A stretch of 64,000 nt of DNA from a virus. Positions within the stretch are counted from its first letter, which is position 1, and each line of letters begins with the position of its first letter. The position numbers were made by a program, and so were the translations under genes. Location: IMG/VR virus record IMGVR_UViG_3300028831_000232, positions 41,638-105,637 of that record. One strand, 5' to 3'. The notes beneath the pieces are model-generated. The model was not told the origin of the DNA. It saw nothing but the letters and a program-made list of their open reading frames with translations, and searched no databases. This document shows positions 38,866 to 44,549 of this stretch, in pieces.

Positions 38866-39168
38866 TCATGTGGGGATGACCAGGAGAGTGATGGCCGAGA
38901 TCATGCCGTTCTCGCCGTCGCCGGGGACCTCGGCAAAGCCGGGCCGGAACACGAGATCGATGCCTCGGGTGGCGACGTAGCCTCGGGCGATCACGCACGC
39001 CTTGATGGCCTGGTTCACGGCCCCGGCGCCGATGGCCCGCAGGACGGGCCGGTTGCCGTCGTAGATGGCATGGCTCACCACCGCCGCCAATTCCTTGGCG
39101 TTGGCCGAGGCCGTTACGCGGAGGACTTCCTCGCCCGGCTTGAGGGCCGTAACTTCGGGACTTCCCAT
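38866..39168 (-). CDS. spoVS: SpoVS-like protein, 100 aa
   Basis: LRVTASANAKELAAVVSHAI, AIGAGAVNQAIKACVIARGY and GIDLVFRPGFAEV match stage V sporulation protein S nearly along its whole length. SpoVS is an Alba-like fold protein, probably nucleic-acid binding, that affects sporulation and cell division in bacteria. A phage copy could modulate host development or coat nucleic acid. Its start lies inside the resolvase gene (55-nt overlap). Confidence 0.85.
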   Translation of the reverse strand: MGSPEVTALKPGEEVLRVTASANAKELAAVVSHAIYDGNRPVLRAIGAGAVNQAIKACVIARGYVATRGIDLVFRPGFAEVPGDGENGMISAITLLVIPT

Positions 39169-39686
39169 TCGGCATGCACCTTTAGTTTCGCCAGTACGGC
39201 CTTCTCATACTCGAATCGTGCTCCGAGCATGAGGCTAGCCGACATCTGGGCAAGCCCATAGGCATCCGCCTGGTTGTCGTCGTTGAAGTCCATCCCCCAT
39301 TTCTTCAATACGGCCTTGAGCATCAAATTCTTCTGGGCATTTCCCGGCAGGCCGCAGAACATCTTCAATTGCTGGGTGGTGGGGATGGTGGGATAGGCCA
39401 GCTGGTTCTCGACGCCGTAGAGGTCGAGCAGCGCCAGCTTCACCATTCCCCCGCACTCCCCCAGGACGTGACCCATCTGCCGGCTGTAGGCGTAGCCCTC
39501 CATCACGATGTGAGCCGGCTCGGTCATGTTCTCCAGCCAGGCCGACAGCGCCTCTCGCAGCTCCCACAGTCGGCGGGGGCCGTGCGTCTTGGGCTTCACC
39601 GTCAGCAGGAGCGGGTCCTGATCGTCCGGGCCTTTGATGGCCGCAGCGGCGAAATTGGTTAACGACTGGTCGATGCCGACGTACAT
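39114..39686 (-). CDS. RuvC-like Holliday-junction resolvase, 190 aa
   Basis: Retroviral-integrase-like fold motifs: YVGIDQSLTNFA (Asp6), HIVMEGYAYSRQMGH (Glu) and DDNQADAYGLA near the end (paired Asp). This is the RuvC/phage resolvase set, typical length. It should cut branched DNA before packaging. The first ATG with a coherent fold is 39686 (GAGAGG upstream); the C-terminus overlaps spoVS. Confidence 0.8.
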   Translation of the reverse strand: MYVGIDQSLTNFAAAAIKGPDDQDPLLLTVKPKTHGPRRLWELREALSAWLENMTEPAHIVMEGYAYSRQMGHVLGECGGMVKLALLDLYGVENQLAYPTIPTTQQLKMFCGLPGNAQKNLMLKAVLKKWGMDFNDDNQADAYGLAQMSASLMLGARFEYEKAVLAKLKVHAEWEVPKLRPSSRARKSSA

Positions 39687-39844
39687 CGGTACCTCTCTTG
39701 GAACCGCTGATGTGCTTTGGAGCCGGTACGGCTCAGCTTGGTGAGCCGGGGCCAGTCCACCCACAGCGAGCGCAGGTAATTGTCGGTCCACAGCGTGAGC
39801 TTGAACCCCATGCCACCACGCTTGTCGAGCGTGAGCCTAAACAC
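39659..39844 (-). CDS. Unknown small basic protein, 61 aa
   Basis: GTG start overlapping the dNMP kinase stop. Contains FKLTLWTDNYLRSLWVDWP and a basic Ser/Arg-rich tail. Overlaps the resolvase start by 28 nt. No family recognised. Confidence 0.55.
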   Translation of the reverse strand: MFRLTLDKRGGMGFKLTLWTDNYLRSLWVDWPRLTKLSRTGSKAHQRFQERYRCTSASTSR

Positions 39845-40980: not shown

Positions 40981-41435
40981 AGGTACGGCTCGATGTCGTA
41001 TTCCCACACCAGCCGGCCCCAGGGCGTCATGGCCCAGGCCATCCCGCTGGCGTTCTCGGTGGGACGATGTACGTCGGGCAGCGCCTTCACCCAGCCCCGT
41101 TCCTCCAGCTCCTTGCGCCGGCTCGCCACGTCGTTCTTGTGGATCCCGGTGCGGCGATGCACCTCGTAGTCAAGCCGGCCCTTCTTGTCATTGGCCGAAG
41201 CGATGCAGGCCAGCACCCGCCACCGCTGACCCTCCGAGAACTGAGCGATGAAATTGGCTGCCTCGGCCTCGGTGGCCCAGGGCCGGCGCCGTAACCAGGC
41301 ATCATTCCCAGCTGGTGTCTCGACCATCTTGCGAGCCAGCGGCAGCGTGAGGGTGGCGTCAGGGTGCAGGCGCTTCACCCGGCGCTCGGTGACCGGACAC
41401 CGGCAGTCCGGGCAGCTGTGCTTGTAGCGCTTCAT
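40977..41435 (-). CDS. Zinc-finger plus winged-helix-like DNA-binding protein, 152 aa
   Basis: N-terminal CPDCRC (8-13) with basic residues; C-terminal half has VHRRTGIHKNDVASRRKELE, a winged-HTH recognition-type helix, and wing-like GWVKALPDVHRP. Probably a DNA-binding regulator or replication accessory; lies in the recombination module. Confidence 0.65.
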   Translation of the reverse strand: MKRYKHSCPDCRCPVTERRVKRLHPDATLTLPLARKMVETPAGNDAWLRRRPWATEAEAANFIAQFSEGQRWRVLACIASANDKKGRLDYEVHRRTGIHKNDVASRRKELEERGWVKALPDVHRPTENASGMAWAMTPWGRLVWEYDIEPYL

Positions 41436-41944
41436 GGCGTCCAGCGGCTCGCCCGACGGTCATGATCCTCACGCCGGCCGACACGGCGGGTCAGCTCCCG
41501 GCTCACCACGGCGGCGTCGCGCTCGGTGGAGGCATAGAGCGTGGCGATCATCTTCCGGTAGGCCACGGCGGTGTGGTAGATGTCCTGGCGCTCTTCGACT
41601 TCGGGGTCGATGTCGCGCTGAGCCTTCGCCACCGTGATGCGGTCGTCCCTGGTCCCGCCCCAGTCCCGCAGCAGCACCAGGCTCTGGGCCTTGCTGAGCA
41701 CCGCCTCGGCGCAGCGCTCCTCGACTTCGGCCATCGCCACCGACACGCCCAGGTGGTCGGTCCAGCGGGTCAGGGCCACGAACAGGCCCATGAGCCGGTC
41801 GTCGGTCAGATCGGTGAGCTTAAGAGGCAGCTTGGGAATTTCGAAGGCCGGACGCGGCGGTAACCGGAATCCTTCGCTTTCGACTCGGGCCTTGGCCCGA
41901 GCTGCTTTCTCGGCCATTTCGAGAGCGAGATTGGAGGTCTTCAT
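41432..41944 (-). CDS. Unknown helical protein next to Cas4, 170 aa
   Basis: Starts MKTSNLALEMAEKAARA; Arg/Pro segment PPRPAFEIPKLPLKL, then long helices. I have seen similar genes beside Cas4-family exonucleases in actinophages. It overlaps the fusion gene 41820-43172 by 125 nt. Possible recombination accessory; function unknown. Confidence 0.6.
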   Translation of the reverse strand: MKTSNLALEMAEKAARAKARVESEGFRLPPRPAFEIPKLPLKLTDLTDDRLMGLFVALTRWTDHLGVSVAMAEVEERCAEAVLSKAQSLVLLRDWGGTRDDRITVAKAQRDIDPEVEERQDIYHTAVAYRKMIATLYASTERDAAVVSRELTRRVGRREDHDRRASRWTP

Positions 41945-43172
41945 CAGCCGCCTCGTTCGCGTAGGGGTCCCAACAGGTTTCCGAATAAGAGCACGATTTG
42001 CAGGTGGGGCTGTCGATGCCCTCGGCCCATTCCGGCCGGCGGGGCGGCTTGCCCGAGTCCAGGGCGTACCGGATGTCGAGGCAGGCGTCGAGGAGATCCG
42101 CCACCAGCTCGGGCTGGTACCGCACCCGGAATTCCTTCACCTGCTGGTTCCATTTCGATTCGTAGACGAACACCATGACCTTGCGACCGGAGATGGCGAG
42201 GTAGATCATCCCCTGGCGCATGTGGGTGGGGAAGGGCCGCTTGATGTCCCGCCAGATGCCCTCGTAGTCCACCACCGCCTTCTCGGACCCGTCGTCCTCC
42301 TTCACCTTGTAGGTGTGCTTGCCGAGGAGCTTGGGCGCCTCGAAGCGCAGCGTGCCGATGCCGATGCTCTTGACCTCCAGCAGCGGGCAGAGCGCTTCGT
42401 CGTCCTCGTCAGCGATGTCGCCGTCGGCGTGGCCGGCGATCAGGTGCTTGTCGGAGCGGACGGGCACCTCCCGGTACGACAGGCAGCCCCGCTGGGCCTT
42501 GCACTTCGGGCAGCTGGCCGGGGCCGTGGCCCGCCAGCCGTGGCCGCAGGCGTTGCAGTGAAACCGGCCCCGGAGCAGGCCCATCTCCCACAGCCAGGTC
42601 TGCCATTTGTTGTGGATCTCGTGGCCCTCTTGGAAGACGTTCTCCAGGGTGAAGCTGTGCCCGTCGCCCTCGGCGGCCGGCGCCCCGATGAGCCGGAAGA
42701 AGGTGTTGCGGGGGCACCAGTCGGTCTTGCACATCTCCGACGGGTGGATCACGTCGGTGGGCCGGTCCTCGGGCGGGCGGATCATCAGGTGGCGCTGAAT
42801 GGCCCCCAGGATGCGTGTCTCGACCTTGGTGGTGTTGAGCACCTTGGCGAGGGGCGACTTCTTCACCGTGCGGATGACCCTCACCAGTGCCTCCTCCTTG
42901 CGCCGCAACCGCCGGATGGCGTTCCGGTCACGTTCCGAGCGCCCGCCCCATACCCCGAATTTCTCGTGATGCCTCAGTGCGTATTCCAGACAGTCCTGTT
43001 TGACAGGGCACGGCGGCCGACCATCGAGGCCATTGCAGATGGCCTTGGCCGCCTGCACTTCGGCTGTGGTGTCGCGGCCCTTGGCCTTGATGGGGAAGAA
43101 GAAATCGGGTCCAGCATTCCAGCTGTGGCACTTGGCCTGATCGCTCCATTCAGGACGGCCCCATTCGATCAC
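41820..43172 (-). CDS. WhiB-like iron-sulfur domain fused to Cas4/PD-(D/E)XK exonuclease, 450 aa
   Basis: Residues 9-90 resemble WhiB: WSDQAKC, FFFP, C46, C55-PV, C61 and GVWGG (73-77). Four Cys could hold a 4Fe-4S cluster, though C46-x8-C55 is longer than the usual C-x2-C. From about 140 on it is a Cas4-type nuclease: C148 and C153, a zinc knuckle (C206, C209, C221, C224), GHADG (247-251), EVK (266-268), then C391, C394, C400. Cas4 enzymes are exonucleases in recombination. GTG start chosen for the GGAG upstream. The tail overlaps the next gene. Confidence 0.75.
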   Translation of the reverse strand: MIEWGRPEWSDQAKCHSWNAGPDFFFPIKAKGRDTTAEVQAAKAICNGLDGRPPCPVKQDCLEYALRHHEKFGVWGGRSERDRNAIRRLRRKEEALVRVIRTVKKSPLAKVLNTTKVETRILGAIQRHLMIRPPEDRPTDVIHPSEMCKTDWCPRNTFFRLIGAPAAEGDGHSFTLENVFQEGHEIHNKWQTWLWEMGLLRGRFHCNACGHGWRATAPASCPKCKAQRGCLSYREVPVRSDKHLIAGHADGDIADEDDEALCPLLEVKSIGIGTLRFEAPKLLGKHTYKVKEDDGSEKAVVDYEGIWRDIKRPFPTHMRQGMIYLAISGRKVMVFVYESKWNQQVKEFRVRYQPELVADLLDACLDIRYALDSGKPPRRPEWAEGIDSPTCKSCSYSETCWDPYANEAADEDLQSRSRNGRESSSGQGPSRKRRIPVTAASGLRNSQAAS

Positions 43173-43470
43173 CGAATAGCTCCAAAAAGTCGCCCCTTGG
43201 CAGGACGACGTAATGATCTCCCGAGAGTTCCAGACAGAGGGCGGGGACTCGACCCTCAGCCACAGCTTCGTCGGTGATTTTCCGCAGGTCAACCTTCTTC
43301 ATGGTGATCTGCTCACCGCCTGTGTACTTGTTCTCGATCAGGAGGACCGGCGTCTTCACGTCGCCCTTGGCGAACCACTGGTTACCGCTTCCAGTTGTGA
43401 CCCGGCCGCCGAAGCGCTTCGCCGTGTCCTTCTCCTGGCGCCGGCTGCGCTTCTGGCCCTCGGACCTCAC
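43150..43470 (-). CDS. Hjc-like Holliday-junction nuclease, 106 aa
   Basis: RSRRQEKDTAKRFGGRVT, a GDVKTPVLL segment and IENKYTGG give the E...(G)D...ExK order of archaeal Hjc-type PD-(D/E)XK resolvases, with the usual length. It probably cuts branched DNA with RecA and Cas4, whose genes flank it. Start chosen as the ATG at 43470. Confidence 0.7.
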   Translation of the reverse strand: MRSEGQKRSRRQEKDTAKRFGGRVTTGSGNQWFAKGDVKTPVLLIENKYTGGEQITMKKVDLRKITDEAVAEGRVPALCLELSGDHYVVLPRGDFLELFGDRMGPS

Positions 43471-44549
43471 TTCTTCGAGCGCGGCCGGCGCACCGTCCGC
43501 TTCACGCCGGGCGGCTCATGGTGGAAGAGCAGCTGCCGGACCTCGGCCTCCAGCTGGGCGATCAGCTCGGGGCGCTCCCGCAGGGCGGCCACCAGCGAGT
43601 CCACGCCCCGCCACTTCTCGTCGCCGTACTCGTACCAGCTCGACCTCCCCGAGTCGCCCCGGCGGATGAGCTGGTGGGCCTTGCCGACGGCCACGATCTC
43701 CTTGACCCGGTCGAACTCGCCGGCCTTGAAGTGGCCGTCCTCGGAGTCGCAGAAGTAGAAGTCCACCACCGCCGAACGCTGCGGCGGCGCCGTCTTGTTC
43801 TTGATCGTGGTCATCTTGATCGTCTGGCCGATGCGGAGGTCCCCCTCCTCGATCCAGTCGTCGCGCTTGACCTCGACGCGGATGGAGTAGAAGAAGTTCT
43901 TGCCCCGGCCGCCCGGCGTGGTGCGGGGGTCGCCCCGGATGACGCCAATGCGGTCGCGCCACTGGTTCACCATCAGGCCGAGCACCGGTCGCTGGTGCTC
44001 GGTCATCGACCGCTTGCTGGCCGGCTGCTGCTTGCGGAAGAACTGGCCGGTGAGCAGAGCGCCCAGGCCCACGGCGATCTCGCCCATGTCGTTCTCGTCC
44101 TCGCGCTCGGGCACCAGCGCCGGCAGCGAGTCGATGACGATGCAGTCCACGCTGCGGGTGTCGAGGAATTCGATGCAGCTGCCGTAGACCGACTCCATGC
44201 CGTTGTCCTTCATGACCAGGACCCGGCTGTCGTCCACGCCCAGCTGGCGCGCCCAGCGCTTGTCCCAGCACTGCTCGGCGTCGAACCAGACGGCGCTCCA
44301 CTCGGGGTCGCGGGCCTGGTTGATGGCGATGGTCTTCAGCGCCAGCAGCGTCTTGCCGGCGCTCTCGTAGCCGATGACCTCCACCCAGCGGTTGAGGGGC
44401 CAGCCGCCGCCCAGGGCGATGTCCACGGCCAGCGAGCCGCTCGGGCAGCGGGGGACCAGCTCCTGCTCGATCTCCGAGCCGAGGATGATCGTGCCCTCGC
44501 CCAGCTTCTTGTTGATCCGGGCGGCAATGGCGAGCAGGGACTTATCCAT
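43467..44549 (-). CDS. recA: RecA/RadA-like recombinase, 360 aa
   Basis: Walker A GYESAGKT (60-67) and Walker B VDCIVIDSLPAL (about 133-144), a catalytic-type Glu in FDAEQ, and MVNQWRDRIGVIRGDPRTTP, corresponding to the DNA-binding loop region. Phage-type RecA/UvsX homologue that forms filaments on ssDNA for strand exchange. The C-terminal tail is basic (VRRPRSKK). Overlaps the Hjc-like gene by 4 nt. Confidence 0.85.
   Translation of the reverse strand: MDKSLLAIAARINKKLGEGTIILGSEIEQELVPRCPSGSLAVDIALGGGWPLNRWVEVIGYESAGKTLLALKTIAINQARDPEWSAVWFDAEQCWDKRWARQLGVDDSRVLVMKDNGMESVYGSCIEFLDTRSVDCIVIDSLPALVPEREDENDMGEIAVGLGALLTGQFFRKQQPASKRSMTEHQRPVLGLMVNQWRDRIGVIRGDPRTTPGGRGKNFFYSIRVEVKRDDWIEEGDLRIGQTIKMTTIKNKTAPPQRSAVVDFYFCDSEDGHFKAGEFDRVKEIVAVGKAHQLIRRGDSGRSSWYEYGDEKWRGVDSLVAALRERPELIAQLEAEVRQLLFHHEPPGVKRTVRRPRSKK

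Follow-up and report, generated by a model that had tools for sequence, protein, structure and literature searches.

Within the window, the whole stretch of 64,000 nucleotides of viral DNA analysed here, a WhiB-like (Wbl) domain and a Cas4-type exonuclease domain are encoded together as a single 450-aa protein. This fusion is a rare derived form of a widespread pair of adjacent whiB and cas4 genes. It comes from a phage whose hosts are actinobacteria of soil or water. The window covers bases 41638-105637 of a 105,637-base virus record, and a search of that record found the WhiB domain of the fusion to be the only one present. The fusion gene, its parts and its neighbours are located as follows.

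43467..44549, minus strand: RecA/UvsX-like recombinase (PF00154, E 3e-53; phrog_97)
43150..43470, minus strand: small Holliday-junction-resolvase-like gene, directly upstream of the fusion and overlapping its start (phrog_2002, E 2e-24)
41820..43172, minus strand: WhiB-Cas4 fusion gene, a single ORF of 450 aa with a GTG start
42918..43148, minus strand: Wbl (WhiB) domain, residues 9-85 (PF02467 and AF2 domain model)
42890..42899, minus strand: AAGGAGGAGG, Shine-Dalgarno-like in sequence and translated within the short linker at the domain junction
42882..42884, minus strand: candidate internal GTG start at codon 97 for a Cas4-only product (strength of the Shine-Dalgarno sequence)
41958..42881, minus strand: Cas4/RecB-type PD-(D/E)XK nuclease domain, about residues 98-405 (phrog_2506, motifs and fold)
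42483..42563, minus strand: zinc-ribbon-like insert in the nuclease, CxxC...CxxC, residues 204-230 (weak RUBY_RBDX match at 205-228)
41432..41944, minus strand: downstream gene for a 170-aa protein, overlapping the 3' end of the fusion (synteny)
39114-39791, minus strand: RuvC-like resolvase gene (phrog_159)

The fusion ORF starts with GTG at 43172, terminates with a stop ending at 41820 and contains no internal stop. The coordinates given by the initial annotation were correct, and the gene lies on the minus strand. That annotation had described a four-Cys WhiB-like domain with GVWGG joined to a Cas4-type exonuclease in one protein, and this description is borne out by the uninterrupted ORF and by matches for both halves, each of which is a member of a known family. 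The in-frame stop that might have divided the gene into two proteins is absent, and such a division is ruled out. A plus-strand ORF over the same region (41634-43277, 547 aa) looks like a by-product of open frames in high-GC sequence.

WhiB proteins are iron-sulfur switches that normally grip the sigma factor of the host RNA polymerase. The N-terminal half of the fusion matched PF02467 over residues 9-85 (E 3e-16; 60.2 bits against a cut-off of 23.6), with the Cys pattern C15-x30-C46-x8-C55-x5-C61 followed by GVWGG at residues 73-77. The AF2 model of this domain resembled the WhiB1:SigA4 structures 6onu and 6ono with a TM score of about 0.8 (target length). The aromatic residues that drive contact with region 4 of sigma-A in WhiB1 and WhiB3 (W3, F17, F18 and W60 of WhiB1; PMC10245118) have W9, F25, F26 and W75 as their equivalents in the window. 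Across 56 Cas4-linked WhiBs, these four positions are occupied by W in 50, an aromatic in 55, an aromatic in all 56 and W in 55, respectively, and the four Cys and the G[VI]WGG turn are invariant or nearly so. The Wbl half is thus predicted to be a [4Fe-4S] domain that keeps the surface for sigma-A region 4, and it would be expected both to hold a cluster and to bind sigma. With Wbl factors such as WhiB1 and WhiB3 of M. tuberculosis and WhiB of Streptomyces it shares the four Cys, G[VI]WGG, the basic C-terminal helix, the sigma-A4-contact aromatics and the predicted fold. It differs from them in having C-x8-C where they have C-x2-C, and in belonging to a subfamily that is genetically tied to a nuclease, covalently so in the window.

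The wide spacing had been pointed out in the initial annotation, and comparison of C46-x8-C55 with the C-x2-C of canonical WhiBs confirmed it. The window WhiB departs from the canonical C-x2-C-x5-C arrangement and has the C-x8-C-x5-C that is common to the Cas4-linked subfamily. The gap between the second and third Cys was 7-17 residues, mostly 8, in the Cas4-linked WhiBs examined first, versus 2 in unlinked ones; a few Cas4-linked WhiBs found later have x5, x7, x9 or x10. The Cas4-linked proteins thus carry about six or more residues inserted between cluster Cys 2 and 3, together with an invariant Gly, and the unlinked controls do not. C-x8-C WhiBs were also collected by a scan that used a DNA pattern alone and was blind to Cas4, giving a sample of at least 98 nonredundant sequences, 6 of which were left out of the assessment where the stretch ended. 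Among the matches listed, 90 of the 92 assessable C-x8-C WhiBs adjoin Cas4. The C-x2-C set was drawn from a scan with the narrower spacing and from WhiBs already in hand, and none of its 124 assessable members among the matches listed lies beside this Cas4. These DNA-pattern scans rule out C-x8-C as a one-off, and the spacing can be taken as the marker of a distinct WhiB subfamily, not a quirk of a single protein. Two loci, L072 and L172, have C-x8-C WhiBs without a nearby Cas4, possibly as independent insertions.

The C-terminal half was placed as Cas4-like because it matched phrog_2506 'exonuclease' (E 1e-30) and its fold matched the Cas4 structure 8d3l. Other fold matches in the PDB were Cas4 4ic1 and lambda exonuclease; the Pfam Cas_Cas4 family scored below its cut-off (17.4 versus 22.7 bits), and searching the sequences of the PDB with a profile of the nuclease gave no matches. 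The exonuclease half is complete, as had been claimed, with all active-site and four-Cys positions occupied: H143, D250, E266-x-K268 and Q320-x3-Y324, and one N-terminal and three C-terminal Cys (C153 and C391-x2-C394-x5-C400). All 61 homologues share H143, C153, D250, E266, K268, Q320, Y324, C391 and C394 without exception. The fourth cluster Cys is present in all 61 but is shifted in position, lying upstream of C-x2-C in 46, downstream in 14 (like C400 of the window) and on both sides in 1. The zinc-ribbon-like insert has at least three Cys in 54 of the 61. The AF2 model of the whole fusion had a mean pLDDT of 78, mostly above 90 in the nuclease core, and a pTM of 0.66, with low confidence at residues 73-77 and 97-102; its domain-to-domain placement is unreliable. 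Judged by its motifs, this half is a predicted Cas4/RecB-type [4Fe-4S] exonuclease, and nuclease activity and cluster binding are to be expected of it.

No cas1 or cas2 was present among the scanned neighbours, which are RecA, resolvases and polymerase. Rather than a CRISPR-associated Cas4, the window nuclease is Cas4-like and stands solo in a mobile element. It is like the phage Cas4-like exonucleases (phrog_2506; GiJojo gp150 and BRock gp67 of Streptomyces phages) in family, in motifs and in adjoining the same WhiB and recombination genes. Those of GiJojo and BRock are separate proteins, however, whereas the window Cas4 forms the C-terminal half of a fusion.

A search for the fusion in related phages, as the initial annotation had suggested, found it in three other IMG/VR contigs (L006, L007 and L008), each with a single fused ORF that is 61-63% identical to that of the window from end to end, junction included, and separately in contig L383. 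Because the identical ORF architecture recurs in three other contigs, chance is excluded. In the Streptomyces phages GiJojo, BRock, Alone3 and pSt2308 each half has its homologue in a gene of its own, next to the other, and this arrangement, with the same gene order, holds for nearly all other WhiB-bearing relatives from the first two IMG/VR searches. Altogether whiB and cas4 are neighbours in more than 100 related phages, and a possible cas4 start lies between −60 and +40 nt from the whiB stop in 104 of 118 nonredundant split pairs. A scan of cellular genomes gave one locus (L058), a separate whiB-cas4 pair in Actinomadura atramentaria (NZ_KB907208.1, around 649,000), which is probably a prophage.

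The L383 fusion came from a search with Cas4 only. This 102.8-kb contig has one ORF with both domains and a longer linker, and its neighbours (RecA, a resolvase-like gene and a downstream helical protein) match those of the window. In the Cas4 tree, L383 grouped with the split loci L019 and L020 (SH-aLRT 98), apart from the window clade (99), and a tree with all five fusions forced into one clade was rejected (p-AU 0.005). Therefore, the whiB-cas4 pair has been fused independently at least twice. The second fusion is less secure than the first, since L383 is a single contig; two further scans gave no further fusions among its relatives. The same search showed that WhiB is not a constant companion of the nuclease: among the 66 nonredundant Cas4s closest to that of the window, 31 either adjoin a WhiB or are fused to one and the other 35 have none in that position, which indicates that the nuclease is able to work without it. 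The WhiB-less Cas4s (L009, L012, L318, L325 and others) form one group in the tree (SH-aLRT 91), and among 15 records of this kind that were tested, two WhiB genes occur elsewhere in 8 and none in 7.

In the window clade, the last basic helix of the Wbl domain (RRLRRK) is followed by about three residues and then by the Cas4 N-terminus. These linker residues, EEA in the window and VNG in the others of the clade, are encoded by a Shine-Dalgarno-like stretch, behind which comes GTG, ATG, ATG or TTG at about the position of the standalone Cas4 start in GiJojo gp150. In the window, AAGGAGGAGG-N5-GTG has the strongest Shine-Dalgarno sequence among 36 in-frame ATG/GTG/TTG/CTG candidates and surpasses the gene's own start; L383 has an ATG with a moderate one at the equivalent position. 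On the question of a start that separates the halves, also raised in the initial annotation, the single uninterrupted ORF speaks for one protein, but a Cas4-only product of 354 aa may arise from this in-frame start. Synonymous shuffles of the internal Shine-Dalgarno sequence gave p values of 0.52, 0.39, 0.115 and 0.005 (combined 0.02), which are only suggestive of selection. We treat use of the internal start as a hypothesis, because the shuffles indicate that a site of this kind would frequently arise from the encoded protein alone. If used, it could decouple the sigma and nuclease functions.

The fusion lies in a recombination-replication module with RecA, two resolvases, DNA polymerase, DnaB helicase and dNMP kinase. 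Its two parts probably work together, because they stand side by side in so many phages and were fused repeatedly. Repeated fusion of two genes is a classic sign of products that act together. Because the conserved locus includes other genes, a frozen operon could by itself account for the adjacency. We tentatively favour, at somewhat short of an even chance, a bifunctional phage recombination protein in which an end-processing Cas4-type nuclease and a sigma-A-binding Wbl domain have coupled activities. The architecture, the adjacency, the two tree-separated fusions and the retained catalytic, cluster and sigma-contact residues were computed directly. Nuclease activity, cluster binding, sigma binding and the joint action of both activities are what we infer from them. 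The Cas4/RecB-type exonuclease would process DNA ends for RecA-dependent recombination and replication of the phage, and the Wbl [4Fe-4S] domain would contact the principal sigma factor of the host at its region 4. Most likely the Wbl domain would hold the nuclease on sigma-A/RNA polymerase, or else gate it by sigma contact or cluster state, with the outcome that transcription is coupled to end processing. Its gene would have originated when an ancestral whiB and the cas4 next to it were joined in frame, so that what had been the ribosome-binding site of cas4 came to encode the linker, and in unfused phages the separate WhiB and Cas4 would be partners with the same role. A wider proposal, that the C-x8-C Wbl subfamily consists not of gene regulators but of tethers that hold a recombination exonuclease to the host sigma factor and so couple end processing to transcription, the tether having become covalent at least twice, seems rather unlikely.

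The main rival of coupled function is passive co-expression, in which WhiB does no more than regulate transcription from phage or host promoters, Cas4 is only a nuclease, both are needed simultaneously and the internal start supplies free Cas4. The tight spacing of the ancestral pair, the good Shine-Dalgarno sequence at the Cas4 start and the frequency of Cas4s without an adjoining WhiB are all consistent with it, as are the intact sigma-contact residues, which are expected of a working transcription factor. We consider it a serious but doubtful account, as the same pair was fused twice separately and C-x8-C WhiB is tied near-exclusively to Cas4, which a generic regulator would not need. The repeated fusion would equally suit a Wbl domain repurposed as a nuclease accessory, for DNA grip or as a redox gate, after loss of sigma contact, and the insertion with its invariant Gly that sets Cas4-linked WhiBs apart from unlinked controls also points that way. 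This reading does not predict that all aromatic sigma-contact positions are conserved, and we judge it unlikely.

A role against CRISPR, with the phage Cas4 diverting host spacer acquisition and WhiB merely co-expressed, has precedent in Cas4-like phage proteins reported to have that effect, as in a Campylobacter phage (PMC5704561, PMC4283603). The neighbours of the fusion are replication and recombination genes, however, and no CRISPR genes are annotated around the homologues, which makes such a role very unlikely here. An assembly or sequencing artefact that joined two genes might be suspected in an IMG/VR record when most relatives have two genes. Since the window shares its in-frame junction with three other contigs (61-63% identity), and residues to either side of it are conserved, an artefact is ruled out for practical purposes in the window clade; for the single contig L383 it is conceivable, and overall it is scarcely credible.

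The whiB gene serves as a marker of actinophages and its products are regarded as transcription factors, yet few phage WhiBs have a known role. A WhiB subfamily that is readable from its Cys spacing, lies nearly always beside one nuclease and has been fused to it twice provides a concrete, testable partner. The link suggested between sigma-factor binding and DNA-end processing is not described in the open-licence literature searched. Nor was the WhiB-Cas4 fusion found there, in agreement with the initial annotation, which took the architecture to be new; the C-x8-C subfamily and the whiB-cas4 module were also without description in that literature, where absence is not proof. For cluster EK phages, Cas4 is noted to lie no more than 10 kb from whiB (PMC8612146). 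The Ku-Lsr2 fusion of cluster J mycobacteriophages (PMC8612146) similarly places an actinobacterial regulator domain on a DNA-end repair protein in a phage, but Ku carries an Lsr2 DNA-binding tail, whereas the window nuclease carries an Fe-S domain of sigma-binding type. WblP (PMC6282962) also has a Wbl domain inside a fusion protein, with a sigma factor as partner instead of a nuclease. Fused Cas4-type nucleases are found in UvrD-Cas4 and Cas1-Cas4 (PMC5704561), whose partners are a helicase or an integrase; WhiB is not mentioned in that paper.

Conservation extends to the genes on either side of the fusion. The upstream phrog_2002 resolvase-like gene has the same place in the gene order of GiJojo, Alone3 and L383. 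The 170-aa downstream protein had no family match in Pfam and PHROG searches; it is recurrent downstream of Cas4 and has a conserved LSRELTRR-like motif near its end. Its homologues are named 'DNA binding' or 'SSB' in phage records, labels for which the support is not visible. Two different Holliday-junction-resolvase-like genes (phrog_159 and phrog_2002) flank the fusion, one on each side.
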